NCBI GenBank assembly: GCA_000526255.1
Contig: JAFS01000001.1
Span: forward strand, 310,001 to 374,000
Direction of reading: 5' to 3'
From: Verrucomicrobia bacterium LP2A
GTDB lineage: Bacteria; Verrucomicrobiota; Verrucomicrobiia; Methylacidiphilales; Methylacidiphilaceae
DNA: 64,000 bases
Under the pieces are notes generated by a model. It saw nothing but the letters and a program-made list of their open reading frames with translations. It was not told where the DNA came from and made no database searches. Each line of letters begins with the position of its first letter. Position 1 is the first letter of the stretch. Shown here in pieces: positions 5,059 through 30,676 of the stretch. The translations under genes and the position numbers were made by a program.

Positions 5059-5845
5059 TTCCTTTCCTCTCAGGCAGGAAGAGCCGCTTCCGGCTCGCTG
5101 GATTGGCGGCGATCGTCGCGTAACGGTAGCCCTGCTTGCTTCAGGCACGTTGGCGTCTTCGATTCTGCTCGAGTAGAGCGTGCGCCGCAAGCAGAACGGC
5201 TACAGTGACGTTCGTATGTATGTGGCGGCGCCGGACCGTAAGACATGCTTCAACTCTCTGTCCATTGGTAATCCGGCGGGAGCCATCAGCCACGAGGAGG
5301 AAGAGGAGGTCATCTGGGCGGACATCGTGGCGGTTGGGAAGGATCGGCAGACCAAGGACCAACCTACGGGGCAGTCGCGGTGTAGCAGGTCATCCGGGGA
5401 TTGAGGCGAGGATTCCGTCCCATGCTCGGAGATTCTGCTCAGGGCTCTGCGGGCCGCCTTCGCAGCCTGTCTGGTGATCTTCTCCAAGGCTGAGTAGATT
5501 TTTCCTGGGCTGCCCGTGAGGAGCTATGCCTTCGTCGTCGGACATGGGATCACGGAGGGGGCCCGCCCCGAGGCCAACAAGGGCGGAGCTTCAGGAAGCT
5601 TGGAGTCCCCAAACAGTGATCGCAAGCCGCTCAAGCCATTGCTGGGGCGACGGAAGGCGTTCTGCCGCGATTGCTTGGCGCGCTACGGCGGGACATATTG
5701 GCGAGATGGACAAGCGGGTCCGAATCCAGAATCCGCCGATCCGCCTCGACCACGTCAAGGGCGAGATCGTAGCGGCGCGCTGCCTTGCGATTCCGGCCGA
5801 GGCGGTCGATCTCGCGGGCGAGTCAGAATCCCAGCGGAGAGCGGA
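5059..5845 (+). other. Gene-poor mosaic of IS debris
   Basis: No frame here has convincing coding character. Around 5320-5400 the plus strand resembles the tail seen at 13370-13450 (a VGRERQT-like stretch; here VGKDRQT), which looks like the end of a TnpB-type gene; this is a weak match. Frames at 5526-5864 are open but I cannot tie them to a family. Confidence 0.35.
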
Positions 5846-8471: not shown

Positions 8472-9695
8472 ATGGAGATGACGAGAGAGGAGCTGGGACG
8501 GCGGATTCGCTCCGCGAGGGAAAGCTGCGGGCTCACCCAGGAACAACTCGGCGAGTCCGTTGGACTGAGCCGCGTCGCGCTCGGCCAGATCGAGTCGGGA
8601 GCTCGGTCCGTCTCGAGCCTGGAGTTGGATCGCCTCGCGCGGGCGCTGGGCAGGGACATCAAATCCTTCTTTGTCACGGCCTTCGCGGAGCGTGACGCGC
8701 TTTCGGCGCTTTTTCGCTCGGACGCCGAACTCGCCCAGCAAGTAGACCTCCGAAAGGCGTTACAGGACAGCATGGCGCTTGGGCACGAGCTGACCAATCT
8801 CGAGCGGCTGCTCGAGATCGATCGCGTCCAGCCTATCACCGCAACCTATCAATTGCGATCGGCGAAGTCGCGTTGGGACGCGATTGGGCAGGGGCAAAAA
8901 GTGGCCACCGAGGAGCGGCAGAGACTGGGGCTTGGCGTGGCCCCCATCGGGGCCCTGAGCGAGCTGCTCGAGTCGCAAGGAGTGCGTACTGGTACGGTCG
9001 CGCTTCCGGAAAACATATCGGGGCTTACCCTTATCGACAGCACGATTGGCCTGTTCGTGGTGATCAACGCGAACCATGCACCTGTGCGTCAGCGTTTTTC
9101 CTTGGCCCATGAGTATGGACACGTGCTGATGGACCGAGATCGAGCTGGTGCGGTTAGTCGGGTGGAGAAGCGTTCGGACCTCCTCGAGGTCCGCGCCAAT
9201 GCCTTCGCGGCGGAGTTCCTGATGCCGGCCGAAGGCGTCGCGCAGTTCATCCTCGAGTTCGGCAAGGGGGCGGCGAGCCGTGCCCAGATGGCGGTTTTCG
9301 ACGAGGCCGAGGTAGTGCAAGTCGAGCAGCGCGCCACGCCCGGATCGCAAGCGATCCAGCTCCACGACGTCGTATTGCTCGCTCATCATTTCAGAGTGAG
9401 CCGGATTTCGGTCCTCTATCGCCTAATGAATCTTCGGCTGATCGACGAGCGCGAGTTCCAACGCCTCAAGGCCGCGGAAGACCGCGGAGATGGCCGGAAG
9501 ATTGCGGGCTTCCTTGCTGCCCCGGAGGTCCCGACCGAAGACAGGTCTGATTTCCGCCGTCGTTTTCTCGCCCTTGCGCGAGAAGCCTATCGTCGAGAGG
9601 AGATCACGCGCAGAAAGTTCGCCGAGTTGGCTTCCATGGTCGGCCTTGGTCCACAGGAGGTGGAGGACTTCATCGCCTCTGCAAATTGGGAGTGA
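8472..9695 (+). CDS. Xre-family regulator with ImmA/IrrE-type zinc metallopeptidase domain
   Basis: A 407-residue protein of the COG2856 class. Residues 6-60 form a helix-turn-helix (RRIRSARESCGLTQEQLGE, then LSRVALGQIESG). The metalloprotease site is HEYGH at residues 213-217 with downstream acidic residues in RANAFAAEFLMP. Related proteins (ImmA, IrrE, PezT-associated proteases) cleave or regulate repressors and antitoxins. An AAGGA-type site precedes the ATG. The PIN-domain gene starts inside its last codons, so the two form one operon; this protein likely acts as the DNA-binding/antitoxin side (inference). A decayed relative of the whole pair sits at 52.4-53.6 kb. Confidence 0.85.
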   Translation: MEMTREELGRRIRSARESCGLTQEQLGESVGLSRVALGQIESGARSVSSLELDRLARALGRDIKSFFVTAFAERDALSALFRSDAELAQQVDLRKALQDSMALGHELTNLERLLEIDRVQPITATYQLRSAKSRWDAIGQGQKVATEERQRLGLGVAPIGALSELLESQGVRTGTVALPENISGLTLIDSTIGLFVVINANHAPVRQRFSLAHEYGHVLMDRDRAGAVSRVEKRSDLLEVRANAFAAEFLMPAEGVAQFILEFGKGAASRAQMAVFDEAEVVQVEQRATPGSQAIQLHDVVLLAHHFRVSRISVLYRLMNLRLIDEREFQRLKAAEDRGDGRKIAGFLAAPEVPTEDRSDFRRRFLALAREAYRREEITRRKFAELASMVGLGPQEVEDFIASANWE

Positions 9696-10234
9696 TCGTG
9701 GGAAGCGACCAACCAACGGCCACGGATTGCCAGAGGGCTGCCATCGTCACCGATACGAACGTCCTCATCAACCTGTTGCACATCGGGCAGTTGCCGCTTC
9801 TGGGTGTGCTCGAGCCGTACCAATTCCTCGCGCCAGAAGAGGTGCTCGGCGAGATGATTGATCCAGCTCAGCGCGAGGAGACTGACGCTGCGATCTGCCG
9901 TGGCGATCTTAGCCTCCTTGACATCGATAGTGTGGAATACCTTGCGTTGTTCAGCGAGCTGCGCGACGTGATGGGCCGTGGCGAAGCGGCATGCCTTGCG
10001 CTGGCCAAAACCAAGCGGTGGCACATCGCGTCGGACGAAAAGAAGTGCTTCCGTCGGCGAGCAATCGAGTGGATCGGGAAGGAACGCATCCTCCGAACGG
10101 AGTTGATCTTGCTCGAAGCGATTCGCTTTGACTGCATCACGGTGCCCGAGGCGGATGGCTTCAAAGCGGTTCTGGAGGCGAAACGCTACTCAATGCCATT
10201 CAAAAGCTTTGCTGATCTGCTGGGAGGGCTGTAA
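9692..10234 (+). CDS. PIN-like domain protein, probable toxin partner of the Xre-ImmA protein
   Basis: About 180 residues. The PIN fold signature begins at AIVTDTNVLINLL (first aspartate), continues with an EEVLGEM acidic segment, then GRGEAACLALAKTKRW and IASDEKKCFRR (late aspartate). This resembles DUF3368-like PIN nucleases. GTG starts occur at 9692 and 9698; the latter has GGAG 6 bases ahead, and both place the start within or just after the stop of the upstream gene, indicating translational coupling. A ribonuclease toxin controlled by the protease/HTH protein is the simplest reading, inferred from the gene pair rather than shown. Confidence 0.75.
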   Translation: MIVGSDQPTATDCQRAAIVTDTNVLINLLHIGQLPLLGVLEPYQFLAPEEVLGEMIDPAQREETDAAICRGDLSLLDIDSVEYLALFSELRDVMGRGEAACLALAKTKRWHIASDEKKCFRRRAIEWIGKERILRTELILLEAIRFDCITVPEADGFKAVLEAKRYSMPFKSFADLLGGL

Positions 10235-12710: not shown

Positions 12711-13337
12711 GCTCCTCGCTGAATGGAGCGGGTCAGGGGAGCGGATTTTCCGTTCAGGGGTGGCAAGAAGCGGGGTTCTTGCCCTCCGTCTTCGAGAGAG
12801 TTTTGGGGAGAGAGGAAGGGGGGTGGACGCGGCGATCAGGAGTTCTCCCCGGCGTCTTTCGATGGCTCCTCGGCGCAAGATCCGGTGCGGTCCGGCGCGG
12901 AGGCGGGGCTTGCGCTGCTGGAAGCTGGGGGAGACTTCGCCGACGGCATCATCGCGCAGGGAGGCAAGCGGCTGGGCGGCCAAACCTTTGCCTCCTTCGA
13001 CAAGAAGGCGGTCGCGCTCCTCTCCAAGCGGGAAAGGCCACGCGGCTGCCGCCATTGCTGCCATAGGGGAAAGGCCCGCCTCGACCACCAATAGCCTCTT
13101 CCCCCCGCCATCGGCAGCTCCTCCACCCGCTTCGGGTAACGGAGCGAGTTCTGCGCGCTCTTGTCTGCGATGGTGCATCTCCCCCGGGCCAGATCCGCCG
13201 AGCTGCACCGGAAAAGGAGCCAAAAGGATGGCCAGAGGCTTTCAAGGCTTCAGTTCCCTGAGGATTGCCGCGTTCCTCAAATCCGGAACGTTGCGGCTCG
13301 ATCGTCCCGCTCCCCCCACGGGAAGGAGCGAAGAGGC
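12710..13337 (+). mobile_element. ISL3 shell with a PIN-gene fragment in place of most of the transposase
   Basis: The left end (GGCTCCTCGCTGAATGGAG) plus about 120 bases of ISL3 upstream region, including the GGCAAGAAGCGGGGTTCTTG hairpin, is joined at ~12835 to foreign sequence. From ~13195 the last ~45 codons of the transposase (RMARGFQGFSSLRIAAFLKS) and the right end GAGCGAAGAGGC return. No 8-base target duplication flanks it, so either the ends recombined or the flanks diverged. Confidence 0.7.
12873..13046 (+). pseudogene. VapC-like PIN toxin, C-terminal fragment
   Basis: One frame reads ALLEAGGDFADGIIAQGGKR followed by TFASFDKKAVALL, which is the C-terminal half of a VapC PIN domain: DFAD supplies the third acidic residue and TFDK-like TFASFDKKA the fourth. 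The N-terminal half is missing. The fragment lies within an ISL3 shell. Confidence 0.6.
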
Positions 13338-14000
13338 TGGCAAGGTCAGCGACGACTCCAGCCAGGTGAAGGCCACGGATGTGCTGTCGGTTGGCAGGGA
13401 GCGGCAGACCAGGGAGCCGGTCGGCGTGGCGGTTATGGTCTCAGCCAAGGTGCGTCCTTATGAGCTGGAGCCGGCGGAAGCTCGGTCGAAGGCGTTCCTC
13501 AGGGCGGCGGAGACGTGATCTTCGCCTAGTTTCATCCTGAGCGGGGAATGGAGGACCCTTAGCGTCGATCCTAGCCAGCTAGCTTCTCCGCCCGCGATTT
13601 CGGCGCAATTCTCCTTGGAGCCGAACCAAGAAGCGCGTCAAGCCTTCGGAAGCCGTTGCGTCTCCTGGTGATCCCGTGCTCGGGATTGTCGCCAGGTATC
13701 GGATGAAAGATCCCCCCGGGGCTTTTAGCCCGTGGCCTGTGGGAAGAGAGAAAAAAGAGCGACCTTGCCCTGCTCGTCGATGGCGCGAGGGGATGACCCG
13801 GTTGGAGCTGGAGAAGCCAAAAGCCGATGAGAAGGGAGATTTTGGCGGCCGTCCGGCCCGGGAGCATGGCAAGCATGGGATCCCGTCAGTGATCGATCTT
13901 GAGGGCGCGCCCTGGGGCAGGCCCCTGGGAAGAACCTCTCCGGCAACGACTGGAAAGTGGCGCGCTTCGGGTGCCGCCGGCGAGAAGTACTTTGTTCAGC
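13338..14000 (+). other. Mostly non-coding; possible TnpB tail
   Basis: 13340-13518 continues in frame from the ISL3 transposase remnant and contains DVLSVGRERQTREPVGVAV, similar to a segment at 5320-5400 and suggestive of the variable tail of a TnpB-type gene. From 13520 to 14000 I see no gene. There is a GC-rich hairpin-like run around 13710-13740. Confidence 0.35.
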
Positions 14001-14897
14001 ATGGAAGAGAACAACCAGAGCTCGCCGGGAGCGCCGACCGGCGACAGATGGGGATTGGCGCTGGAGGAATCGAGGACCTACAGGTGGCAGATGGTCCATG
14101 GGCCGGTGATGTCGGCCGTCGAGGGTGACGTTGGCCGGGAGTATATCCGGGCGATGGCAAAGGCCAAGGCGGCCTTGGCTGAGGCCGGGAGGAATGCCAG
14201 CGGTACGGAGCGGTATCGGTATGGCAGCTTGGCATCCATCTTGGACACGCTGGCTGAGCCGCTTCGGGCCAACGGCTTCGAGATCTCGCAGCCGCCGGTC
14301 GTCTTGCCGGGATGGGCAGGGGCGGTGACCGAGGTTGCCCATGAGAGCGGGCAATACCGCGCTGTAACGGTCATGTTGCCGGTAACGGCCGGGAGGAGGA
14401 TGGAGGGAGGCAAGGAACCGGCGGCTCCCACGGCCCGGGAGTATGGGGCCGCAATTCGCCATGCCCGGCGTTATGGGCTGCTGGGCATCCTTGGGCTTCC
14501 GTCCGAGGAGGTAGAGGAGGTGGAGGGCTTCTCGCCAACGCTGGAGGTTTGGGGAGCCGATTGGCAGGATCGCAGCGTGGTGGTGACGGTGCTCAAGTCG
14601 GAGATCCAGCAGGGGAGCTCTGGGGGCAAGGCCTGGAGCTGCTTCCGCTTGTTGGTCCGGGAGAAGGCTGGGGAGGAGTATTGGCTGACCACCTTGGAGA
14701 GCGAGGTGGCCAACCAGCTGCTTGCGGCCCGCACCGCGGTGGTCGAGATCGAGGAGGTGAGGAGTGGTGGCAAGGCCTATCGCAAGCTGAAGCGGGTCAT
14801 TGGGAGCCCCCTGGGGTCGGCTTCTGCGTGCGATCCGGCCCATGCCGACTTCTGGCCCGACGATCTGGCCATCCCGGACGAAGAGCCCCCCTTCTAG
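14001..14897 (+). CDS. ERF-family single-strand annealing protein
   Basis: A 298-residue protein. The ERF signature lies at residues 45-85: KAKAALAEAGRNASGTERYR, then YGSLASILDTLAEPLRANGF, followed by the LTHxSG-type strand here seen as VTEVAHESGQYRAV and the YGAAIRHARRYGLLGILGL helix, a classic match to the conserved 'xYAxxYALxxLLGI' region. ERF proteins, like Redbeta and Rad52, anneal single strands and come from phages, prophages and plasmids. The C-terminal ~130 residues (AWSCFRLLV, YWLTTLESEVANQLLAARTA) form a second domain I do not know. It stands upstream of four tandem paralogues on the same strand. The start is taken at ATG 14001; a longer frame exists but is less protein-like. Confidence 0.75.
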   Translation: MEENNQSSPGAPTGDRWGLALEESRTYRWQMVHGPVMSAVEGDVGREYIRAMAKAKAALAEAGRNASGTERYRYGSLASILDTLAEPLRANGFEISQPPVVLPGWAGAVTEVAHESGQYRAVTVMLPVTAGRRMEGGKEPAAPTAREYGAAIRHARRYGLLGILGLPSEEVEEVEGFSPTLEVWGADWQDRSVVVTVLKSEIQQGSSGGKAWSCFRLLVREKAGEEYWLTTLESEVANQLLAARTAVVEIEEVRSGGKAYRKLKRVIGSPLGSASACDPAHADFWPDDLAIPDEEPPF

Positions 14898-15144
14898 GGC
14901 AAGGGAGCGTGAAGCCTGGAGCCGCCCGTCCGGCGGTCGGAGAGACCGTGCAGCAGGCCGGGCGGCTCCCGGCGGCTGGGCGCTATCGGAAGAGGCGGAA
15001 AGCCACTCTTGCGGGGTTCCGGAAGCCAGGATCGCCCGCGAATGGGCATGCCTTTGCGCTTGGCCGGAAGCTGCGGATCGACCCCTGGGTGCTTCCCTCC
15101 CTTTGGATCTTGTGCAGCCATGGGGAAGTGCGCACATTGCCCCA

Positions 15145-15879
15145 ATGGCAATCGAGAATCCTTGCGCGGAGGAGATCCTGAAGGCGCTTGGCGCCAATCC
15201 CGAATGGCGGGAGGCGGTTCGCAAGGAGCTCTGCGGCGAGGAAGCGCCCCAATTGAGCCCGGAGGAGGGGGAAGCCTGGCGGCAGCTTCTGGAGACCCAT
15301 GCGATCCTTGAGAGCGGGATCCAGGAGTGGATGCGGTTCGCGGCCGCAACGGGAAAAAGGGTGGAGTCGATGGCGAGGCGTGTCGAGGAGCTCCGCAAGC
15401 CCATGGACCTCATCGACTCCTGGGCTCTGGCCGAGTGGGCTTCGGAGCGGATCGGGAAGATCGTGTGGCAGAGCGGCGTGAAGCTGGTTGCCGGAGGGGA
15501 GCGGGATCTTGTCGCGCATCTGATCGAATGGGCGGCGGAAGCGCAGGTCTTGAGCGGGAATGAGCGACGGGATCTTCTCCTGGCCGATTTTTTGGGCCTT
15601 GGCATGGAGCGATGGTCGGGGGAGCCCGTCTGCGTGGCTCTCCTCTTCTCCAAGAGCTGGAGCTTTGAGGATATTGAGTGCGCGGCAAGGCACGGGGATC
15701 TTTGGCTTAAGGTGGTGATGGCCGCGGAGGCGGCCAGGCCGGGCACGGTGACGAGCTTCCTGGCCCGGCCACCTTCCAAGCGGCACGCCGTGGTGGCCAG
15801 CTTTTCGAGGAATTGCTTGGAAGAAGAAAAGGCCATTCGGCGGCAAGTCTGCTACGAAACGATCGTTCGGGAGATCTGA
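15145..15879 (+). CDS. Tandem paralogue 1 of an uncharacterised DFLG-motif family
   Basis: A 244-residue protein. The N-terminal ~50 residues are charged and helical (EEILKALGANPEWREAVRKE), followed by a coiled-coil-like region. A conserved module starts at WALAEWASERIGKIVWQSGV, passes through an EAQVLSGNERRDLL helix into ADFLGLG, a buried strand VCVALLFSK, and a helix DLWLKVVMAAEAA. The topology resembles the DUF3782-like proteins with a C-terminal PD-(D/E)XK-like domain (D in the ADxxxxG strand, then VEVS), but the E of the next strand is absent. Three similar genes follow directly. Whether it is a dead nuclease or a binding protein is open. Confidence 0.65.
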   Translation: MAIENPCAEEILKALGANPEWREAVRKELCGEEAPQLSPEEGEAWRQLLETHAILESGIQEWMRFAAATGKRVESMARRVEELRKPMDLIDSWALAEWASERIGKIVWQSGVKLVAGGERDLVAHLIEWAAEAQVLSGNERRDLLLADFLGLGMERWSGEPVCVALLFSKSWSFEDIECAARHGDLWLKVVMAAEAARPGTVTSFLARPPSKRHAVVASFSRNCLEEEKAIRRQVCYETIVREI

Positions 15880-15882
15880 TGG

Positions 15883-16611
15883 ATGAAGAGTGAGGTTAAG
15901 GACGAGGAGATTCTGGCCAAGGCGAGGGAGAGCGCCGAGTGGAAGGCTGCCGCCCGGAGGGCGATGGTAGCGGAGAGGAGCGCGAGCCTTCCGGAGGAGA
16001 AAGGGGAATTCTGGAAGAAGTTCTTGCAGGTCAATAGCGGCCTTCAAGCCTCGATCGAGGCTGGAGAGTTGTCGCGGGCGGCATTGGATCGAGCCGAGGG
16101 CCTTTTTGAGGACACGGTCGATCGGCTCACGGTCAAGCTGAACCTAATGGCCGGATACAAGCCGATACGCAACCTGGAGGAGCGGATCGAAATTCTGCTA
16201 GGGAGCGCCGGGCTTTTTGCTTATGGGATGGAGCGCCGCGAATTCTGGAAGGTCATTCAGGAGGCGAGCGATGCGGGGGGTCTGAGCCCTGAGGAGGAGG
16301 ACGACCTCCTTCGTGTCGATTTTTTGGGAGTGGGAACCGATGTTGACACCGAGGAGCGGGTCTGCATCGCAGCGGCTGCGTCCCGAGTCGTGCATCGGCG
16401 GGTGATTGCCCGTGCTGCGCGAGGGGCCCGCCTCTGGTTCCAGGCGGTCAGGGCTGCCTTGGAGGTCGACCCGGGGCTCCTGGCCGAGTACCTGCCGGCG
16501 CCACCGACCGGCTCTCGCGCCGTCGCTGTCGGCTTTTGGATGCGGATCTCGGATGTGGATGAGGCAGAAAGGCTGGGGGTTCGATTCGGGAGGGTGGGCT
16601 GGAAGCCCTGA
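15883..16611 (+). CDS. Tandem paralogue 2 of the DFLG-motif family
   Basis: A 242-residue protein starting 4 bases after the stop of paralogue 1. The same layout is visible: EEILAKARESAEWKAAARRA at the N terminus (like the NPEWREAVRKE stretch of paralogue 1), a long helical middle, then GGLSPEEEDDLLRVDFLGVG, strand VCIAAAASRVV and helix ARLWFQAVRAALE, and a last strand GSRAVAVGFWM. The aspartate of VDFLG is kept; the following strand has A-A-A where an active nuclease would carry E-x-K. Likely co-transcribed with its neighbours. Confidence 0.65.
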   Translation: MKSEVKDEEILAKARESAEWKAAARRAMVAERSASLPEEKGEFWKKFLQVNSGLQASIEAGELSRAALDRAEGLFEDTVDRLTVKLNLMAGYKPIRNLEERIEILLGSAGLFAYGMERREFWKVIQEASDAGGLSPEEEDDLLRVDFLGVGTDVDTEERVCIAAAASRVVHRRVIARAARGARLWFQAVRAALEVDPGLLAEYLPAPPTGSRAVAVGFWMRISDVDEAERLGVRFGRVGWKP

Positions 16612-16672
16612 GCGCACCGCCGCGAGTCGCACTTCGCATTGCCGGTAGCCTTCTTTGGGAGGATATTCGGTC

Positions 16673-17419
16673 GTGGCTGAGGAAATGGGCTCTTTGGAGG
16701 AGATTCTTTCGGCGCTCGAGGAGCGTCCGGACTTGAGGGAAGCCGTTCGCGCGAAGCTGATGGCTGAGGATGGCACCCAGCCGTCCGAAAGCCCGGAAGG
16801 CTTGCTCGACGGGCTCCGGGAGACCAACGCGATCCTCAAGTCCTTCCTGCAGGAGTCACTCCGCTTTCAGAGCTCGGTGCGGGGCGCGATGCAATCGCTC
16901 GACGAAGCGCTCCGGGCGCTCAGCCAGCAGCTCGATCTCATTGTCGGGCAGGGCATGATGAGATGGGGGAGAGAGCGCATCCAGAACATCGTGCGGCGCT
17001 CTGGCGTGCGGCTGGCCTATCCGTTGGAGTGGCAGATCCTCGAGGAGGTCATCGAGTGCGCCGTGCAAGCGGGAGTGCTGAGCAGAAGCGAGATGGATGA
17101 CCTCTACGAAGCGGATTTCCTGGGGGTGGGCCAAGAGCTTGCCACGGGCACTCCTCTCTGCGTCGCGGCGGCGATCTCCTGCGTAGTCGATCGGACAGTC
17201 ATCGAGCTGGCGGCCTCGCATGCGGATCTCTGGCTCAAGGCGGCGAGGGCCGCGATGGAGAGGCGGCCGGAGCTGCTTGCCAAGGTCCTGCCGACCGCGC
17301 CGGTCGATCGGCGGGCGTTGGCGGTTGGCCTCTGGATCGGCTCGGTGGACGCCGACCATGCCGACTCCCTTCGCGTCGACTTTGAGAAGGTGATCGAGGA
17401 TCCTCTGTGGCATTTCTAG
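16673..17419 (+). CDS. Tandem paralogue 3 of the DFLG-motif family
   Basis: A 248-residue protein from GTG, with GGAGGA about 10 bases upstream, which decides this start over the TTG further 5'. The N terminus EEILSALEERPDLREAVRAK repeats the opening of paralogues 1 and 2. A coiled-coil follows (FQSSVRGAMQSLDEALRALS), then GRERIQNIVRRSGVRL, GVLSRSEMDDLYEADFLGVG, LCVAAAISCVVDR, DLWLKAARAAMERR and RRALAVGLWIG. Of the four copies this one looks most like the DUF3782-type architecture. The acid expected in the strand after DFLG is again missing. Confidence 0.65.
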   Translation: MAEEMGSLEEILSALEERPDLREAVRAKLMAEDGTQPSESPEGLLDGLRETNAILKSFLQESLRFQSSVRGAMQSLDEALRALSQQLDLIVGQGMMRWGRERIQNIVRRSGVRLAYPLEWQILEEVIECAVQAGVLSRSEMDDLYEADFLGVGQELATGTPLCVAAAISCVVDRTVIELAASHADLWLKAARAAMERRPELLAKVLPTAPVDRRALAVGLWIGSVDADHADSLRVDFEKVIEDPLWHF

Positions 17420-17487
17420 CCACCCGGCTGGAAGGGTCGGAAAAGGCAATTGGAGTGGCAGAGGGCTCAAGGGGAGGAAGGCAAGCG

Positions 17488-18195
17488 ATGGCCAAGGATC
17501 GATTGGAGCTCAAGGAGGCCCAGGCCCGGCAGATCCTCGCCGAGGATCGATCGAAGCTTCCCGGAAGGGTCGGTGAGGTATGGGCCGCCATCGGCGAGGC
17601 GAATGCGGTCCTGCTGGAGTCGGTGGCGCACGGATCGCGATCGCAAGCCTTGCTGCAGGAAGCCAAGTTGCGGATCGACCAGAGGAGGAAAGCCTTTGGT
17701 TGGAAGATCGAGCGCATGGCCCGGGCCGACCCCATCGCCTGGGCGAGGGATCACATCCCGAGCATCGTTTGGCGGTCGGGCATCCGGCTCGAGCTTGGGA
17801 TCACGGGGAGGGTGGTCGAGGATCTGCTGGAAGGCGCGCTTCAATCTGGGGCGCTGGCGGAGGCGGAGCGGCAAGAGCTCCGTTCCGCGGATTTCCTGGG
17901 AATCGGCTGCGAGTCGCGGCGGGCGCTCACGACCTGCGTTGCTCTCGGTGCCTGCCAGATCGTGGAGCCGGAAGGAGTCCTCCGCGCAAAAAGGAATGCG
18001 GAGCTCTGGCTTCAGGCGGTGAAGGCCGCGACGGCGGCGAAGCCCGAGGCATTTTCCCGGCTTCTACCAAAGGCTCCCGAACGATCTGTGGCGATCATCG
18101 CCGGGGCTTGGATGAGCTTCCGGTGCTTCCGCGAGATTGGCCTCTATAGCTGGAGCAATGGGATGCGCTTCCAGAGGGTTCCGTGGCCGGTCTGA
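17488..18195 (+). CDS. Tandem paralogue 4 of the DFLG-motif family
   Basis: A 235-residue protein; the ATG is preceded by GGGAGGAAGG at good spacing, so the longer upstream frame that overlaps paralogue 3 is not needed. It has lost the EEIL-type opening but keeps the module: ARDHIPSIVWRSGIRLELG, ALAEAERQELRSADFLGIG, CVALGACQIVE, AELWLQAVKAATAAKP and SVAIIAGAWMS. It is the most diverged copy. Function unknown; same comments on missing nuclease residues apply. Confidence 0.65.
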   Translation: MAKDRLELKEAQARQILAEDRSKLPGRVGEVWAAIGEANAVLLESVAHGSRSQALLQEAKLRIDQRRKAFGWKIERMARADPIAWARDHIPSIVWRSGIRLELGITGRVVEDLLEGALQSGALAEAERQELRSADFLGIGCESRRALTTCVALGACQIVEPEGVLRAKRNAELWLQAVKAATAAKPEAFSRLLPKAPERSVAIIAGAWMSFRCFREIGLYSWSNGMRFQRVPWPV

Positions 18196-18272
18196 TGGGC
18201 TTCCGCCAAGCTCTCCAGCAGCGAAGAGCCGGCTTTGGAAGTCAGTCGTGGGGAGGAGGGGAAGCGCAAGGA

Positions 18273-19381
18273 TCAGAGGCTTGGCTCATCGGGCACCACC
18301 ACCGAGAAGCTGGCCTTCTTGCGATCGCCAGGGTCCCTCGAGAGCACGCCGAGCTCGAGAAGCTCGCGCATATCGCGCTCGACCGTCAAGAGCGGGCGGT
18401 GGGCGATCTTCGACCATTTCCTGGCCGTTAATTGACCTTTGAAACCCTCCAAGCAGCGGCTGAGCATGAGCTTCTGGCGCTCGTTGAGCGGCGACCGGGC
18501 GTGGATCGTCCAGAAGCGGGCCTTCCGCAACGCCTGGCGGTGCATCTCCCGCGCTCCGTCCACGGCGCGGGAAAGGCAGCCCAGGAACCAGGAAGCCCAC
18601 CCGGTCAGGTCCAATCCGCATCGATCGGCGTTCTCCAGGCTCCCAGAGTATCCCTTCCGCTCCTTCGCGATCTGGCGCGAGAGGCTATGGAAGGTTCTCC
18701 CCAAGTCCTCGGAACGCGCCAAGGCCAAGCCTGCGATCGCCCTGCCGATGCGGCCATTGCTATCCTCGAATGGATGGATCGTGACGAACCAGAGATGGGC
18801 AATGGCCGCCTTCAGGACGCCGTCGATCGCCTGCTCGGCGTTGACCAGGCAAGGAACCTGCCCATTTCCAGCGGCGGGCGGGATGCCGGAGGCGCCTGGA
18901 AGTGGATCTTCTCCCTTCCGATTGGGCCAGAGGCAATGACCATCGGCCCTTTGACGTCGTCGCGCCACGCGGCTGTCCGGATCTTCCCCGAGCGGGAAGA
19001 GCCTTCCGGGAAAAGGGCCGCATGCCAGCCGAACAACCGCTCCTCGGTGAGCGGAGCTCGAAAATTCCGCGTTGCGTCCAGGACGATCTCAGCCGCCCCT
19101 TCGGCTTGCCGGTGGAAGGCGAAGGGAGCCTCAAGGCCAAGCCGCCGCGCCACGGCGGACCGCACGGCATCCCGGTCGAGCCTTTCGCCTTCGATCTCGC
19201 TGTTCCAGAACGCCTCTTCTGTGATCGCCAACGCCTCAGCCTCAGCGGACTGCGGGATTCCGAGCGCGAAGATGGCTTCCCGGAGGCTCCCCTGCTTCCG
19301 CCGAACGGTGGCAAGCTGCTCTCGGATGGCCTCAGCGTCGAGCTTGAATGCCGGCCACTCCCGCTCTTCCCAGAGGTGCAT
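18273..19381 (-). pseudogene. Fic-family protein with DUF4172 N-terminal domain, one frameshift
   Basis: The upstream frame (from ATG 19381) encodes EREWPAFKLDAEAIREQLAT, the DUF4172 domain, then SEIEGERLDRDAV, close to the inhibitory-helix motif [S/T]xxxE[G/N] but with N in place of the first S/T. The Fic core follows in another frame: HPFEDSNGRIGRA, matching HPFxx[G/S]NGRxxR, the AMP-transfer loop. The frames switch near 18850, where one base seems missing in TGGT-CAACGCCGAG. A winged-helix-like C terminus (RKWSKIAHRPLLTVERDM) ends the gene. Fic proteins of this class modify proteins with AMP. A single indel makes this either a recent pseudogene or an assembly error. Confidence 0.75.
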
Positions 19382-20287
19382 ATTGGCACGCCGCTTCTCT
19401 CTATCTCAGCCGCAGCGTTCTTGGCGTGATCGAGGGGTGCACGGCTTCCTTAGCCAAACGCGACGGGTCACCGTAGCGCTTGCCGCTCTGACCCCCGGAG
19501 GAGCAGGAGGCCGGGCCCCGTGGAATGGGGCCGGCTCCCAGCCCGCGGGACTGGGGGTAAGGCTCCGCGAAATCGCGATGGTGTCCGGCGAGATGACCCC
19601 GATGCGCGGTGAAGGCCCCCGATCGGCAATGGTGGCCTTCTTGGCCCCATGGGAGCCCGCGGTGCTCCCGGGTCGCGGCATCAAAGGTCGCAAATGACGG
19701 AGATCTAGCCCTCGGCGCTGAGCGCCATAACCTACCCATGGCCGCCCGAGTCCTTCTTCACCAACCCACCCAAAGAAACGCACATTGCTGCAATCGATTG
19801 GGCGGCCGGTGTCAAGATGATGCTCGGCGGCCTGGCGGTCGGCATTCGTGAGCGCACGCGCGCATTCGACCGACGCGAGGAAGCCATCTACTTCTCTTTG
19901 CGATTGCGTTGCTTTGGGCATGCTGCTTCCCCTGGCACCCCGGCTGATGGATCCAGGCGCGGCTTGCCGATCTCCGGCGGGCCATCTTACATCGTTCTAT
20001 GGCCAATGCGCCAGACGGCAAGAACCGAGGCCAGCAAGGTCGCCTGGCATCCGGACCTCGTTCAAGTGGGACGCAATCAGGGCAGGTAGTCGCGAACGGA
20101 GGTCAGCCTCTTCCGCCAATCGGCCATGGCCAAAGAATGTTGCCTGGTCCGGACGATCGAAAAAAGCACCCGTAAGATGCTGCGGAGATTCCGATACTGG
20201 AAGGGAGAGGCGTTCTTCCTCCTAGGCGGGAAGTGGCATCGCGCTCTTCCGGCGCTGGCGACTGGACAGAGTGGAGAGGCGGAATTT
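19382..20287. other. Long intergenic stretch before the cas operon
   Basis: About 900 bases without a convincing gene. 19440-19697 has a plus-strand frame (LTPGGAGGRAPWNG..., MTPMRGEGPR...) that looks like a TnpB-type tail, with strong GC hairpins at 19520-19560. 19900-20287 precedes cas3 and should hold the operon promoter; I could not pick a convincing -35/-10 pair. Confidence 0.35.
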
Positions 20288-22930
20288 ATGATACCAACTA
20301 TGGAGGCTTGGGGAAAATACAAGCGGGAAACCGGGGCGATGCACCCGTTATCGGATCATTGCATTGATGTTGCGGCAGTATTCCTGGCAATTTTGGATAG
20401 GCCGAATATGTCTGGACCGCTCGCTGCTCTGGATAAGCCTCAGAAATCTAGATTGGCCGTCTTTGCGTTCCTTCATGATTTTGGAAAGTGCAACTGGGGA
20501 TTTCAAGCAAAGTCCAGTCGCGAGAAAACGCGCACGGCTGGGCATGTGTTTGAGGCTGTGGCGTTCCTGTGCGAAGAGGCCATTCGGAACAGATGGCCTC
20601 CGGAATGGAGCCAAATGCTGGAGGAGCTCTCAAGCTGGTTTGCTGGTGGAGCCGAACAAGCGAGCTCCATGCTGCTTGCCGCGCTCTCACACCATGGCCG
20701 ACCCGTGTCGCTAAATGACTATGAGGACAGTAACGCCAGGAACTTTGCCGAAACATTTTGGCGGGACAAGGGCGGACTAAGTCCGGTTGTCACGATAGGG
20801 CGGCTTGCGGCGTTGGCGGGTGAGTTGTTTCCAGATGCCTTCGCGTCGACGACGGAGGCCATGGATGCTACGCCTGGGTTTCAGCACCGTTTCGCGGGCC
20901 TTTTGATGTTGGCGGACTGGATAGCCTCGGACGAGCGGTTTTTCCCTTTTCGAAGATGCGAACGGGAGGATCGCTTTAGTCTGGCCGTTCGCGCCGCAGA
21001 GAATGCGCTGCGCACCATCGGAATTGTCACTCCGGAGCGCCAGGATGTCAAAGGTTTCAAGTGCATATTTGGCAAAGAGCCATTCCCGATGCAACGCGCC
21101 GTATGCGAGAAGCTCGCTATCGATGATTCGAGCAGGCTGATCCTGATCGAATCCGACACGGGATCAGGCAAAACGGAGGCTGCCATCTATTGGTTTTGCC
21201 GTCTGTACGCAAAGGAGCTTGTCGACGGAATGTATTTTGCCCTCCCAACGCGGGTGGCCGCCCGCGAGATCTACAACCGTGTGCGCACCGCCATGAGGTC
21301 GGCCTTTGGACCGCAAGAACGTCCAATCCCCATCCTACCGGCAATTCCGGGCTACATGGGCGCGAAGGGCAAGTACGTCCTTCCGGAGTCGGAGAATGCT
21401 TTATGGGACGATGACAACACGGACCGCAGACGGGAACGGCTATGGTCATACGAACATCCAAAACGATTTTTGGCGGCGCCGGTGGCTGTGGGCACGATCG
21501 ATCAGGCTCTCCTGTCGGTGCTTCAGGTTAAGCACAGCCTCATGCGCTCAGTTTGCCTAGACCGCCAGCTCCTAGTGGTTGACGAGGTGCATGCGTCGGA
21601 CCCATACATGCGCCAAGTGCTCCGCATGCTACTCAGGAAGCATCTGGGGCGGGGGCGGTGGGCCATGCTCCTCTCTGCAACTCTGGGTGAGTCGGCGGCG
21701 GCGGAGTTTTTCCAAAGGGAGAGACGCTCGCTGGGCTTGGCTATAGCTAAGCCATACCCAATGCTGTCGACGAGCTCCATGGAACTTCCGGTCGAGTCGA
21801 CATGCCACAGAAGCGTCAAAGTAGACCTCCATTCGTCCATGATGAGCGACAATGATATCGTTGGGCCGCTGGTGGAAGCGCTCGCCCACGAGGCGCGAAT
21901 ACTTGTCGTGTGCAACACGGTTGGAAGGGCAAACAGCCTATTCCGTCTAGTGGAGAGGCGGCTGGAGGATGAGCGGCGGGAGCTTCTCTCCGGCATGTTC
22001 TCGTTGAGCGGGGTGCGCTGCCCGCATCACGGACGGTTCGCGCGCGAGGATCGCAAGATGTTGGACAAGGCTGTCTCCGAAAGGCTGGGCAAGAAGTCTC
22101 GGTCTGGCGCATGTCTGCTAATCGGCACGCAGACGCTGGAGCAAAGCCTGGACATAGATGCGGACTGGCTTGTGACCGACTTGGCTCCAATGGATGTCCT
22201 TCTGCAACGGCTTGGGCGCCTGCATCGGCACAACAGGAAGCAGCGTCCAGAGCGGTTTGCAGTCCCAACCGCAACGGTGCGGGTGCCGTCGCCTAATGTT
22301 CGCAGTGGCGAGGCTGTTCTCGGTACCATGATTGGCTGCACATCCGGGGGGACGGGAACTGTCGATCCAGTGGCCAAGAAGCGCGGTGAGGCTGCTGGCA
22401 TTGGGAGCGTTTATAAGGATGTGAGGACCATCCTCTTGACGTGGCAAGAGCTTGAGGGGCGCGGGACGCTGAACCTGCCAGACGACGCCCGCGTACTGAT
22501 CGAGAGGACAACCCATCCCGAGGCGTTTGAACGCTTGCCAGCATTCTGGGAAAGCCATGGCCGGGAGATTGAGGGGGAAGCGATGGCCAGCGCCGGACTG
22601 GCGCGCGACTCCGTGGTTGGTGAAGAACCATTCGGGAAGCTTCAGTACATGGAGCGCGATGGACGGATACTGACAAGGATCGGGGATCCAACATTTGATA
22701 TTCCGCTGAGGAGCCCGCGCGAATCTCCATTTGGCAACATTGTCAGAAGCGTCCAGATCCCTGCCAGATGGTTGTCAGACGACGAAAACGGGCCACCATT
22801 GGCGCTAGCGGACCACGAAAGGATCCCAGACAGTGTGGACGCGACACCGACAGAACCTGGATTCCGCTTTGCGATAAAAGATAATGAGTTCGAGTACACA
22901 AGATTGGGATTGGAGAGGCGTAATGCATGA
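20288..22930 (+). CDS. cas3: CRISPR-associated helicase/nuclease Cas3 (type I-E)
   Basis: About 880 residues. The N-terminal HD nuclease is marked by HPLSDHCIDV (residues 19-24) and FLHDFGKCNWGFQ (63-64 HD). The SF2 helicase follows: SDTGSGKTEAA (Walker A, ~residue 287), VVDEVHASDPY (DEVH, ~432), LLSATLGESAA (motif III) and QTLEQSLDIDADWLVTDLAP with QRLGRLHRH (motifs V-VI). Cas3 is recruited by Cascade and degrades target DNA. An open frame extends about 50 codons upstream, but ATG 20288 has an AGGCGG site close by and gives a normal N terminus. Its stop overlaps the start of cse1. Confidence 0.93.
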   Translation: MIPTMEAWGKYKRETGAMHPLSDHCIDVAAVFLAILDRPNMSGPLAALDKPQKSRLAVFAFLHDFGKCNWGFQAKSSREKTRTAGHVFEAVAFLCEEAIRNRWPPEWSQMLEELSSWFAGGAEQASSMLLAALSHHGRPVSLNDYEDSNARNFAETFWRDKGGLSPVVTIGRLAALAGELFPDAFASTTEAMDATPGFQHRFAGLLMLADWIASDERFFPFRRCEREDRFSLAVRAAENALRTIGIVTPERQDVKGFKCIFGKEPFPMQRAVCEKLAIDDSSRLILIESDTGSGKTEAAIYWFCRLYAKELVDGMYFALPTRVAAREIYNRVRTAMRSAFGPQERPIPILPAIPGYMGAKGKYVLPESENALWDDDNTDRRRERLWSYEHPKRFLAAPVAVGTIDQALLSVLQVKHSLMRSVCLDRQLLVVDEVHASDPYMRQVLRMLLRKHLGRGRWAMLLSATLGESAAAEFFQRERRSLGLAIAKPYPMLSTSSMELPVESTCHRSVKVDLHSSMMSDNDIVGPLVEALAHEARILVVCNTVGRANSLFRLVERRLEDERRELLSGMFSLSGVRCPHHGRFAREDRKMLDKAVSERLGKKSRSGACLLIGTQTLEQSLDIDADWLVTDLAPMDVLLQRLGRLHRHNRKQRPERFAVPTATVRVPSPNVRSGEAVLGTMIGCTSGGTGTVDPVAKKRGEAAGIGSVYKDVRTILLTWQELEGRGTLNLPDDARVLIERTTHPEAFERLPAFWESHGREIEGEAMASAGLARDSVVGEEPFGKLQYMERDGRILTRIGDPTFDIPLRSPRESPFGNIVRSVQIPARWLSDDENGPPLALADHERIPDSVDATPTEPGFRFAIKDNEFEYTRLGLERRNA

Positions 22931-24464
22931 TCTGCTGACAGATGAGATCATTGGTGTGCGGATGCGTGGCGGCGCACGGCAAATGACCCTTCCGGGCCTT
23001 CTGGCCGCATTGAGCTGCGGATCCGTGGAGGGTTACGTGAGCATCCAGCCGCACCAAAGCGACCCATGGCATGCATTCCTGGTCCAGCTTGCGGCTACCA
23101 TCCTAGCTCGCGCGCCGACGAAGCGCCTGCCGACGGATCCAGAATACTGGCGGGATGGCCTGCTGAAACTGGCGGATGGCAAGGAAACCGCATGGAGCCT
23201 TGTGGAGGACGTTAACAAGCCCGCATTCCTCCAATATCCATGGAACAGCGGGGATGAGGACAAATACAAGACCGAGCTGAAGTCGCCGGACGAGTTGGAT
23301 GCCCTTGTGGCATCCAAAAACCACGAGATCAAGAAGAGGTCGGTTTACCCGGCATCCGTGGACGACTGGGTTTATGCCATTGTCCTTTGCCAGACGACGG
23401 CCGCGTTCGGCGGAAGCGGGGTCTGGGCCGCGTCCAGGATGAACGGGCAGAGCGGGGGGCGTCTGTTCGTATCCTGGGTGCGTGCGCTTGACCCGTCCAC
23501 ACGATTCCAGGACGAGGCGATTGAGTTGCAGCGTCTACACCAAGACAGAGTTAAACGATACGGCTTCAAGCAAGGTGGAGTCGTGCTCACGTGGCTTAAG
23601 GCATGGGATCTGGAAAGCCCGCAATATAGGATTGACGAGCTTGACCCATGGTTTATCGAGGCAGCCCGCGCCATTCGGCTACTGCCAGCGCAGGAGGACG
23701 GAATGCGCGCTCTCAGGGCAAGCACGGGCAAGCCGCAAATCGACGTGGGTCCATGGAAGCGGGGAAACTTTGGTGATCCGTGGATCCCTTTAGAGAAGGA
23801 CAAAGAAGGAAATAGGAAGGCGATAAAAATCAAACGCGAGGGATTCGGCACGGAGCTTCTCAAAAACATCGTTTTTTGCGACAGCCAACTCCATGTCACG
23901 GAGATGCAGAAGCCGAGACGGTCCGACGGGCCAGGATGGCTTATAGCCAGCGGCTTGGCCTACAACAGGGCAAGGACGGACGGATTTCATAGGGCGGAGG
24001 TTCTTGTTCCAAAGGAAGCTGTGAACCTGCTCGAGCGGCCCGCGGACAGGGATATGCTTGCGAAGCTTGCCAAACGGATGCTGAGCGATTCAGCCAAGGC
24101 AAGAAACGCCCTGAGGGATGCATTGAAAGAGTTTGTCACTAACGGAAAATCGGAGCGGAGGACGGGGAGGTCTGTTGCAAAATGGATAAGGTCCGTTCTC
24201 ACTGAGTTTGATGCGTTTTGGAGGGCGGAATACTTTCCCGCGCTATGGCGCGAGGCTGGGAACAGGGACGCGAGAGTTCCTAAGAGCTGGCTGGACATGC
24301 TGGCCAAGCATACCGATCGACTACTAGTGAATGCGGTCAAATCAGCTCCTCTGGCGCATGGACTGGCGAGGATGGCCGCCGTACGGGCGTCCATGGCGTT
24401 GCGGCGCGGATTGATCAAGGGCGGCATCATTGCAATCCAAAGAGGGCAAGCCGAGCGAGGTTAA
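22923..24464 (+). CDS. cse1: Cascade large subunit Cse1/Cas8e
   Basis: 513 residues, overlapping the end of cas3 by 8 bases. The opening HDLLTDEIIGVRMRGGARQMTLPGLLAAL is the standard Cse1 start ('lL.d.wi.v......LpgLLa'), and the family's AFLQYPW segment is visible near residue 95. Cse1 recognises the PAM, stabilises the R-loop and recruits Cas3. Its C-terminal four-helix bundle should occupy about the last 130 residues (AKRMLSDSAKARNALRDALK onwards). Length is typical for the family. Confidence 0.92.
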   Translation: MHDLLTDEIIGVRMRGGARQMTLPGLLAALSCGSVEGYVSIQPHQSDPWHAFLVQLAATILARAPTKRLPTDPEYWRDGLLKLADGKETAWSLVEDVNKPAFLQYPWNSGDEDKYKTELKSPDELDALVASKNHEIKKRSVYPASVDDWVYAIVLCQTTAAFGGSGVWAASRMNGQSGGRLFVSWVRALDPSTRFQDEAIELQRLHQDRVKRYGFKQGGVVLTWLKAWDLESPQYRIDELDPWFIEAARAIRLLPAQEDGMRALRASTGKPQIDVGPWKRGNFGDPWIPLEKDKEGNRKAIKIKREGFGTELLKNIVFCDSQLHVTEMQKPRRSDGPGWLIASGLAYNRARTDGFHRAEVLVPKEAVNLLERPADRDMLAKLAKRMLSDSAKARNALRDALKEFVTNGKSERRTGRSVAKWIRSVLTEFDAFWRAEYFPALWREAGNRDARVPKSWLDMLAKHTDRLLVNAVKSAPLAHGLARMAAVRASMALRRGLIKGGIIAIQRGQAERG

Positions 24465-24468
24465 GACG

Positions 24469-25083
24469 ATGGACGAAGAACAAGCGACAAACATCGACGA
24501 ACTCTTTCCAAAATTGAAGGGGGAATCGTCGCTGGTTCCGGATGGGGCGAAGCAGGGCGAACCTGTCCAAGCAGAGGGATCGGAACCATCGCTGCACCAG
24601 ATAATCGGGACAATCGCCGCTGTGATCGGTTCCGACGCTCTGCCAGAGCCGGACCGCACGGAACTGCGCCGATGGGCGCCTTGCAAGCCAACTCCGTTCG
24701 CCTTTCACTGGCTATGGTTGAGCTATGTGCCCGACAAGATGCGCCAAGAGTCCAAGCGCGTCGGATGGATGACGATCTTCTGGGGAATTGCAGCAATGGG
24801 TGCAAAGTCGCATCGACCGGGGCGCAAGTTCGGGGCGGCTCTGGGGAAAAGCGGATATTCCAGGATGCGGTTTGAGCGGATGCTCAACGCGACCGACCGG
24901 AACCGCGCCGCGCTTCTGATGAGCGGGGTGCATTTTCTCAAAGCGAAGGAGGAGCGATTCGACTGGTGCGATCCCGCAGCGTTTCTGTTGACGACCGATG
25001 CCGTCAAATGGAACCGGATTCGCGACAGGATCATTGAAGACTATATACGAAACGAAATGAAACATGCAAAAAAAGGAAGCTGA
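24469..25083 (+). CDS. cse2: Cascade small subunit Cse2/Cas11e
   Basis: 204 residues, starting at ATG 24469 with GAGG 8 bases upstream and 4 bases after cse1. The Cse2 fold is helical; here residues 65-200 carry the characteristic GWMTIFWGIAAMGAKSHRPG and SRMRFERMLNATDRNRAALL (family: 'lgr.L......se.R...Ll'). The first 50 residues are acidic and low-complexity, an unusual extension relative to the E. coli protein. Two copies normally line the inner face of Cascade and hold the non-target strand. Confidence 0.9.
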   Translation: MDEEQATNIDELFPKLKGESSLVPDGAKQGEPVQAEGSEPSLHQIIGTIAAVIGSDALPEPDRTELRRWAPCKPTPFAFHWLWLSYVPDKMRQESKRVGWMTIFWGIAAMGAKSHRPGRKFGAALGKSGYSRMRFERMLNATDRNRAALLMSGVHFLKAKEERFDWCDPAAFLLTTDAVKWNRIRDRIIEDYIRNEMKHAKKGS

Positions 25084-25085
25084 AC

Positions 25086-26396
25086 ATGTTGCTGCAAATC
25101 CATACGCTGACGACTTACGGGCCAAGCCTTCTCAACCGGGACAGAGATGGCATGGCGAAGAGGATCCAGTTTGGAAATGCCTCGAGGATCAGAGTGTCGT
25201 CCCAATGTCTGAAGAGGCATTGGCGCGACGAGATGAAGCTGGCTCTGGCGGACATTCCGGACGGCTGGCGCACCCGGGCATTTTTCACGCATCAAGTACG
25301 TCCAAGGTTTGAGGATGCCTACGCCGAGTGGCAAGCCACGGAACACGAGAAAAAACCACTGGATGCAACGACCGTCGAAAGGCTGCTGGAGGTTCTCAGG
25401 AAGAATGTCGTGCCAGACAAGGAATCCGACGATGGCGATGGGAGCGCGGACGGTGAAGATCGTCCTGACAAAAAGCGCAAAGGGAAGAAGAGCAAGCACG
25501 CCAGCAAGGACGCTCAGCAGGAACTGCTCCCGGATCAGCAGGCCAAAAGCGAAAATGGAGCGGAAGAGGACGAGGAGGAGGACAGCAACGGCATTGACAC
25601 CAAGCAGCCAATACTCTTCGGCATGCGTGAGGCCGACTATTTCGCCCAGATGATGCTGCGCGCCTGCAAGGAGTCGAAGTCGAATCCGGCAGAGGCGTTG
25701 GACGTCGAGATGAAGAGGAAAAAAAAGAACATACAGGCGATGAGCAAGTCGGCTGCGGGACTTACGGCGGCTCTTTTTGGAAGAATGAGCACTGGCGACA
25801 TTCTTGCCCGAGTCGACGCTCCCGTTCATGTGGCGCATGCATTCACGACGCATGAGGCGAACACGGTTTGGGATTATTTCGCAGTGGTCGACGACATCCT
25901 CAAAGAAAAAGGGTCCGGCGCGGCGCACATTAATGAAACCGAGCTGGGATCGGGAACGTATTACGGCTATGTGGTCGTGGACATCCCGCTTCTGTTGTCA
26001 AACATGACGGGATGCCTTCCGAGCGCCTGGCGGGGACAGGACCGGCAGATGGCGATGCGCGTGCTTGGGGAGTTGATCCGCTGCGTAACATCGAAGAGCC
26101 CTGGGGCCAAGAAGGGATCGACGGCACCATACGCGGTGTCCGATTTCACTTTGATCGAGGTCGGAAAAGCGCAGCCGAGAGCGCTGGCTAACTCATTCCT
26201 GGAGGCTGTGAGTTGCAACGAGGACGTAAGGGTCGAGTCCGCCAGAAGGTTGCTGAAATACATGGATAGGCTGGACCGCGCTTATGGGATGGAGGCAAAA
26301 AGGTTCCTGTCGACCAGCCTGGAGATGGATGTCCCAATTATCAACGAATCCAGACAGGACGCGATCGATCACGCGCTGGACGCCATCTGGATCTGA
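25086..26396 (+). CDS. cas7: Cascade backbone subunit Cas7e/Cse4 with an acidic-basic linker insertion
   Basis: 436 residues, 70 or so longer than the E. coli protein. The start LLQIHTLTTYGPSLLNRDRDG, the KRIQFGNASRIRVSSQCLKR segment and the late ESARRLLKYMDRLDRAYG region are standard Cas7e. Residues ~111-172 are a low-complexity, highly charged block (EEDEEEDSNG, KKRKGKKSKHASKD) inserted before ILFGMREADYF, in the region that normally forms the thumb/helical part. Six copies coat the crRNA. The insertion should be disordered and surface-exposed. Confidence 0.92.
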   Translation: MLLQIHTLTTYGPSLLNRDRDGMAKRIQFGNASRIRVSSQCLKRHWRDEMKLALADIPDGWRTRAFFTHQVRPRFEDAYAEWQATEHEKKPLDATTVERLLEVLRKNVVPDKESDDGDGSADGEDRPDKKRKGKKSKHASKDAQQELLPDQQAKSENGAEEDEEEDSNGIDTKQPILFGMREADYFAQMMLRACKESKSNPAEALDVEMKRKKKNIQAMSKSAAGLTAALFGRMSTGDILARVDAPVHVAHAFTTHEANTVWDYFAVVDDILKEKGSGAAHINETELGSGTYYGYVVVDIPLLLSNMTGCLPSAWRGQDRQMAMRVLGELIRCVTSKSPGAKKGSTAPYAVSDFTLIEVGKAQPRALANSFLEAVSCNEDVRVESARRLLKYMDRLDRAYGMEAKRFLSTSLEMDVPIINESRQDAIDHALDAIWI

Positions 26397-26400
26397 GCCA

Positions 26401-27111
26401 ATGGAATGCCTGATTCTGCGGTTCGACGCGCCCATGATGAGCTTCGGGTCAGTCGTTGTGGACCATATGGGTCCAACCTGGAGGTTCCCAGGCAAGTCCA
26501 TGCTTGTTGGCCTCTGCGGGAACGCGATGGGGTGGGACCATCGCGATGGGAGGCGCCTTTCAGCGTTGCAGGACAGCCTGCGGCATGCGGCCAGATGGGA
26601 CGCACAGCCGAACAAGCTGACCGACTACCAAACGGTCGACTCGTCTCAGGACTTCATGGTCGGCACGGGCTGGACGACATGGGGGGACAGAATTGACCGG
26701 TCTGGCGATCCAAGAAACACCACCCATGAGCGATGGAGGGACTACTGGGCTAATGGTGTAGCCACCGTGGCTATCGCGTTGGATGAAGATGACGAGGTGA
26801 CGGTTGACGGTCTGGAAAGCGCTCTGAGGACGCCCGCTAGGCCGCTCTTCATAGGAAGGAAGCACTGTCTGCCGTCCACGCCCATCCTGATCGGACGACG
26901 CGAGGCGGCTGGAGTCAAGGCGGCTCTGGCGGCCGAGCCACTCGCCGACGTGGGGCCGAGGACAAGGACGGAGAAGATCGAGGCCATGTGGCCGCTCGAT
27001 GAGGGGGAGGGGGTGTCCATCAGCGAGCCCTTTCATCTGCGGGATTGGGCACGGAACTTCTATCTCGGAACCGAGCGATACGCCGTGGGTGTCCTGGAGG
27101 TGTCAGGGTGA
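26401..27111 (+). CDS. cas5: Cascade subunit Cas5e
   Basis: 236 residues, starting 4 bases after cas7. The N-terminal LILRFDAPMMSFGSVVVDHMGPTWRFPGKS segment matches the Cas5e RAMP fold and its 'L.L.ap..sfG......r.t...PtkS' pattern; GLCGNAMGW, and FIGRKHCLPSTPILIG near residue 160-175, are also typical. Cas5e caps the 5' handle of the crRNA. The stop overlaps the GTG of cas6e. Confidence 0.92.
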   Translation: MECLILRFDAPMMSFGSVVVDHMGPTWRFPGKSMLVGLCGNAMGWDHRDGRRLSALQDSLRHAARWDAQPNKLTDYQTVDSSQDFMVGTGWTTWGDRIDRSGDPRNTTHERWRDYWANGVATVAIALDEDDEVTVDGLESALRTPARPLFIGRKHCLPSTPILIGRREAAGVKAALAAEPLADVGPRTRTEKIEAMWPLDEGEGVSISEPFHLRDWARNFYLGTERYAVGVLEVSG

Positions 27112-28711: not shown

Positions 28712-28967
28712 TCGTGTGCGAGGATTTGTGGCATCGGTGATGCTGGAGATCGCGCCTGGTGTCTATAGCGCTCCTCGCATTTCGCCAGCAGTCCGAGAGC
28801 GTATTTGGGATATATTGTCGCGGTGGTTCCACAACGAGCGCGACGCGTCGATTGTCATGCTATGGCGAGAACGAGAGGTGCCAGGAGGACAATCCGTACG
28901 GGTTTTGGGAAGTCCACCTATTCACTTCGCGGAGGTGGACGGAATGATTCTCGCGAGACGGCTGTAG
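28680..28967 (+). CDS. cas2: CRISPR adaptation protein Cas2e
   Basis: 95 residues from ATG 28680, overlapping cas1 by 32 bases. The Cas2e family pattern is clear: TVVVTRNVSDRVRGFVASVM, LEIAPGVYSAPRISPAVRER, W at WDILSRWF, and DASIVMLWRE. It forms the central dimer of the Cas1-Cas2 integrase. The leader of the array starts right after the stop. Confidence 0.93.
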   Translation: MTVVVTRNVSDRVRGFVASVMLEIAPGVYSAPRISPAVRERIWDILSRWFHNERDASIVMLWREREVPGGQSVRVLGSPPIHFAEVDGMILARRL

Positions 28968-30655: not shown

Positions 30656-30676
30656 GGAATGCAAGGTTTGAAAAAA

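Follow-up and report, generated by a model that had tools for sequence, protein, structure and literature searches.

The Tandem Array and Its Coding Status

The window analysed here, a stretch of 64,000 nucleotides (G000:C1:310001-374000) in the 2.47 Mb genome of an acidophilic, methane-oxidising verrucomicrobium, most likely a Methylacidimicrobium, carries four adjacent homologous genes on the forward strand. Specifically, copy 1 lies at 15145..15879 (244 aa), copy 2 at 15883..16611 (242 aa), copy 3 at 16673..17419 (248 aa, with a GTG start) and copy 4 at 17488..18195 (235 aa, a basic protein with a shortened N-terminus). All frames are open, and the gaps between them are 3, 61 and 68 bases; a range of 4-68 bases had been noted, of which the upper value holds and the lower one is replaced by 3. 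Upstream, on the same strand, is a gene for an ERF-type single-strand annealing protein (14109..14897, 262 aa; a longer form starting from a TTG at 13899 is possible), and downstream, on the reverse strand, is a Fic gene (DUF4172 plus Fic, 18273..19381) that is split into two frames.

The four proteins could be aligned from end to end; copies 2-4 are 26-37% identical to copy 1, and 26 columns are invariant, as expected from the original prediction of four paralogues with one common layout. The invariant residues include, in copy 1 numbering, E140, D148-G151, G153, C163, L186-W187 and A193-A194, and the motif endings VALLF, IAAAA, VAAAI and VALGA read exactly as had been described. Identity among the copies at second codon positions was 0.48-0.62, compared with ~0.25 when codons were paired at random, whereas identity at third positions (0.38-0.48) was near the chance level of 0.33-0.35. 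This contrast indicates that selection acted at the protein level during a long divergence, and hence that the frames are coding. In addition, all four ORFs were called by a codon-bias gene caller, and a second species (G004, locus L044) has the array in intact form as well. These results rule out non-coding frames and confirm the earlier observation of four adjacent, homologous coding genes. Note that a scan for promoters and terminators found such sites no more frequently than in shuffled sequence.

A Coiled-Coil Family in Methylacidiphilaceae

Judged by sequence comparison, the tandem copies are members of an unnamed coiled-coil family in Methylacidiphilaceae whose other members are mostly single genes, hereafter called single copies. 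None of the tandem copies matched a named family in Pfam, NCBIfam, PHROG or PADLOC; NCBIfam returned nothing, and Pfam and PHROGs gave sub-threshold chance matches only. For the single copies, the profile databases gave matches to scattered coiled-coil models only. A profile of the four tandem copies and a profile of the single copies were nevertheless aligned with each other from end to end (hhalign probability 99.9%), so that single copies such as L048, L041, L039 and others are homologous to the tandem copies over the full length.

The genome of the window has further family copies at 475 kb and 977 kb of contig C1 and at 854 kb and 1118 kb of contig C2. Many of the Methylacidiphilaceae genomes that were searched have the family; besides the genome of the window, several, though not every one, of those from Methylacidimicrobium and from the wider taxonomic family contain it, and one complete genome (G005) is without any copy. 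Among the 388 genomes of the phylum that were searched, matches were confined to the taxonomic family to which the window belongs. A first contig scan with the four-copy profile gave zero matches, and a contig scan with single copies recovered members in Methylacidimicrobium together with distant relatives in Thermoflexus, Dormiibacterota and an unclassified bacterium. Neither the family nor the array was found in the phages, plasmids and viral contigs searched.

The neighbourhoods of the single copies are unlike one another, and their neighbours, as we read them from their proteins, presumably include kdp, nif and citrate synthase genes. A comparison of the DNA flanking the single copies, made to see whether they travel as a mobile unit, turned up no more than short matches, except in pairs that seem to be orthologous or duplicated. 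The N-terminal start of the single copies resembles S-x-DILAALRxHPEWREAxRREILTEELLxLP, a motif mostly lost in the tandem copies, and their C-terminal domain carries the motif ADALAVGxDxxTGxxVCVAVEVSxxVxxxDVERAxRRSxLFLKA. Compared with the tandem copies, their coiled coils are usually longer and the repeats are variable. For example, the orthologous single copies near nif at L040:9627-10571 and L045:10012-11325 differ in how often a coiled-coil unit of 14 residues (AAAQEKTEARVGQL-like) is repeated, so that stalk length varies across species by tandem-repeat expansion. Another stalk-length change was seen in the single copy at L042:9497-10771, which has an extended array of ~25-residue coiled-coil repeats (LETTLKSFMEATDRRFSEVEGRLDS).

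Predicted Fold of the C-Terminal Domain

An AlphaFold2 model of copy 3, built on 20 family members and thus, like the other models, resting on only ~20 sequences, comprises a long helix at residues 41-90 with modest confidence, followed by a confident alpha/beta domain (pLDDT 83-98; approximately residues 91-243). The predicted order of elements in this domain is that of the alpha-beta-beta-beta-alpha-beta core of the PD-(D/E)XK superfamily. When the domain was compared with solved structures by VIA-align, 2vld (Z 9.2, rmsd 2.8 over 100 residues) and 5gke (Z 9.1), both NucS/EndoMS nuclease domains, were matched, and we take the remaining rows with Z of at least 5 to be PD-(D/E)XK proteins as well. 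The domain of a single copy (L052) was modelled with a pLDDT of 95 and was matched to 2vld with Z 9.9. On the other hand, the best Foldseek E values (0.007-0.013) were not significant by themselves, and sequence-profile searches of the PDB gave only chance matches to coiled-coil or designed-helix entries; the fold assignment is therefore based on the two independent predictions, which agree with each other. The models indicate that the C-terminal domain has a PD-(D/E)XK nuclease fold with NucS/EndoMS as the nearest solved structures, which bears out the guess made from the letters of the sequence, and with this predicted fold the result defines an unnamed coiled-coil PD-(D/E)XK family of verrucomicrobial methanotrophs.

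The likeness to NucS/EndoMS is limited to the fold of this domain (Z ~9-10 over ~100 residues). Identity to the tandem copies is 9-15%, the N-terminal half of NucS/EndoMS is unrelated to the long helix of the tandem copies, NucS/EndoMS gave no sequence match in the PDB searches, and the active-site residues are lost in all four tandem copies.

The original prediction had also pointed to DUF3782, which was described as coiled-coil segments of PD-(D/E)XK endonucleases (eLife 2016, PMC4786415). The layout is indeed alike, since proteins with Pfam DUF3782 (PF12644) and PDDEXK_10 (PF07788) likewise consist of an N-terminal helix, a coiled coil and a PD-(D/E)XK domain. Furthermore, the Thermoflexus relative, which has only the N-terminal module in common with the single copies and retains an intact E-V-K, scores just over the DUF3782 gathering threshold (24.9 vs 24.4). 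Formal membership did not hold, however: none of the four tandem copies reached the gathering score of PF12644 or matched PF07788, and the E-x-K is missing from them. PDDEXK_10 gave a sub-threshold match to one single copy (E 0.055, 13.8 bits against a cut-off of 21.2).

Loss of the Active Site

The single copies share a conserved constellation of acidic and basic residues. In L048 numbering, it comprises E128 and D130, both on the helix that opens the domain, together with D179, E198-x-S, R210 and R214, each kept in 9-10 of the 10 single copies among which conservation was scored. Note that nearly all single copies already have S in place of the K of E-x-K. In tandem copies 1-4, by contrast, E128 is replaced by A/I/M/I, D130 by W/N/W/W, E198 by L/A/A/G and R214 by H/G/H/N, and the K position is S/S/S/C. 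The catalytic E is thus missing from all four copies, as had been claimed. The residues A161, E171, D179, L181, G184, C194, A196, A211 and P241 are essentially kept in the tandem copies. Having D179 but neither E198 nor the K, the tandem copies lack the residues of an active enzyme of the superfamily and are likely to be pseudo-nucleases.

Residue migration is known among PD-(D/E)XK enzymes, and the tandem copies could in principle still be nucleases whose catalytic residues have been relocated. D148, E140 and C163 (copy 1 numbering), which are invariant in the four copies and nearly so across the family, are candidates for such a role. Yet E128, D130, E198 and R214 have all been replaced by non-equivalent residues, often hydrophobic ones or tryptophan, and we regard persisting catalysis as very unlikely.

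The tandem copies also share new features, namely DFLG and LW. Their C-terminal domains contain 4-7 tryptophans each, compared with 0-3 in the single copies, and this contrast, seen in one clade, may represent a single evolutionary event. In addition, the only basic protein among the four is copy 4, the other three being acidic, and plain DNA binding by charge was rejected on that account.

The ERF Gene

The annealing protein was identified by PF04404 (26.2 bits against a cut-off of 25) and by an Erf-like PHROG (3.1e-12), and its best phage relatives are annealing proteins with ~28-36% identity. In phages, a nuclease of the PD-(D/E)XK fold often accompanies the annealing protein, and the original prediction had proposed a functional module of ERF and the array; in such a recombination module, the PD-(D/E)XK proteins would partner the annealing protein as in a phage exonuclease/annealase pair. 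The two are adjacent on the same strand and are linked in two species, and an adjoining ERF gene is also what phage ERF recombination modules have. However, just 2 of the 15 related genomes searched have ERF, in each case at the array locus, and the two loci derive recently from a single one, which amounts to one linkage event in the 15 genomes. No ERF lies beside any other family copy examined, and none was detected in viral contigs by a pattern method. Furthermore, ERF and copy 1 are separated by 247 bases with a 40-base indel between the species. The active site that an exonuclease partner would need is lost from the array, and the array family occurs on no phage or viral contig searched. 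The single origin of the linkage, the eroded neighbourhood described below, the missing active site and the lack of phage or viral relatives of the array do not support a joint machine; we consider the module quite unlikely, and ERF is probably a neighbour of the array, not its partner.

Divergence of the Copies and Probable Recent Exchange

The family tree groups the tandem copies in a single, fast-evolving clade (support 98/95) whose stem is long (0.99), and the branches leading to the individual copies measure 0.5-1.6 changes per site, in line with the proposed tandem amplification with strong divergence. The array, together with the Fic gene behind it, was found in one other species (G004). 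The DNA of the two species at 15240-19239 is 98.2-99.8% identical, and the dS values of the four array genes are 0.006-0.017 (pooled, ~0.011; 8 synonymous changes in ~710 sites). In comparison, the median dS of 11 orthologues around nif, a yardstick of genome divergence taken from this one region only, is 0.249. This difference indicates that the block was probably exchanged recently between the lineages, long after their split, or that it reached both recently from a third. Among the 26 changes in the array since the two copies parted, 18 are nonsynonymous, a ratio that fits neutrality (P 0.29); we therefore make no claim of present-day selection on the array.

An Eroding Neighbourhood

Two further family copies in the window are degenerate. 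A fragment on the forward strand upstream of ERF, at 13339..13512, was recognised by hmmsearch (i-E 1e-9), and a frame-broken remnant in two pieces lies at 5231..5587, also on the forward strand. The ORF at 13228-13518 appears to be the end of an ISL3-type transposase fused to the family fragment, and an insertion may have broken the copy upstream of ERF. The Fic gene inside the exchanged block is broken in the window but intact as one open frame in G004 (L044:10414-11523), where it resembles the SoFic of PADLOC. The broken family copies and the broken Fic gene show that the region is eroding.

Such surroundings raise the possibility that the array genes were formerly useful and are now drifting, with no present function, in a decaying IS-rich island. 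The near-neutral ratio of nonsynonymous to synonymous changes between the two species and the decayed neighbours are as this explanation expects, and the complete genome without the family implies that the genes are dispensable. Against it, neither species has lost any of the four frames, which diverged by 0.5-1.6 changes per site with constraint at the protein level, and the block seems to have been retained after a recent exchange; the counts since that exchange are small. On balance, drift appears unlikely.

A Proposed Non-Catalytic Assembly

We lean towards the explanation that the tandem copies are nuclease-derived, non-catalytic proteins that assemble through their coiled coils and have binding or scaffold roles. 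Under this explanation, tandem amplification would have started from a family gene whose active site was nuclease-like. Before that amplification or in its course, the active-site residues would have disappeared, the fold would have persisted, and DFLG, LW and the extra tryptophans would have arisen as a newly conserved set. The homology, the single clade and the loss of residues were computed, as were the predicted fold and the low divergence of the block between species; the non-catalytic role, the oligomerisation and the mixed assembly are what we infer from them. Specifically, the proteins would multimerise through the long N-terminal helix of the models, perhaps as oligomers in which the four are mixed, and their nuclease-fold domains would offer surfaces on which protein or nucleic acid is bound or scaffolded. 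The extra tryptophans and the opposite charge of copy 4 relative to copies 1-3, contrasts that derive from a single clade, fit protein interfaces and mixed assembly. A bolder version, in which a laterally exchanged four-gene set of dead nuclease-derived subunits comes together as a single mixed coiled-coil complex whose task is binding (e.g., sensing or shielding DNA, or holding proteins), is put forward tentatively. To our knowledge, such a role has not been described for an array of PD-(D/E)XK fold. What makes the array of interest is that a branch of the family without its active site was nonetheless multiplied into four genes that have lasted and, it appears, moved between species. Should the four proteins act jointly, they would be a clean case in which to ask how a nuclease fold turns into a multi-part binding assembly.

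Defence-Related Genes near the Array

The array could also be imagined as a new defence system acting as a sensor or decoy, since it has probably been exchanged laterally and has a type I-E CRISPR locus, the SoFic-like Fic gene and an RmrA-like gene in its vicinity. Nevertheless, PADLOC models of known defence systems matched neither the four copies nor ERF (E up to 0.01), contrary to the suggested defence module, and most family copies elsewhere have no recognised defence neighbours. A link to the CRISPR locus was rejected as well: cas3 starts 2 kb downstream of the array, but beside the intact array of G004 no more than the start of cas3 can be recognised. A defence role is accordingly highly improbable.

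The type I-E locus itself extends over 20126-30700, with PADLOC matches to Cas3 at 20126 and Cas8e at 22923, and includes a repeat array at ~29103-30700 with a 61-base period and ~26 repeats. ARAGORN called a tRNA-Gly at 23353-23446 within the cas8e frame, which is probably a false positive. On the other side of the array, at 8472-10234, a gene for an HTH plus M78-peptidase (IrrE-like) protein resembling the RmrA of PADLOC is followed by a weakly PIN-like gene, and the two are possibly a toxin-antitoxin or defence pair.
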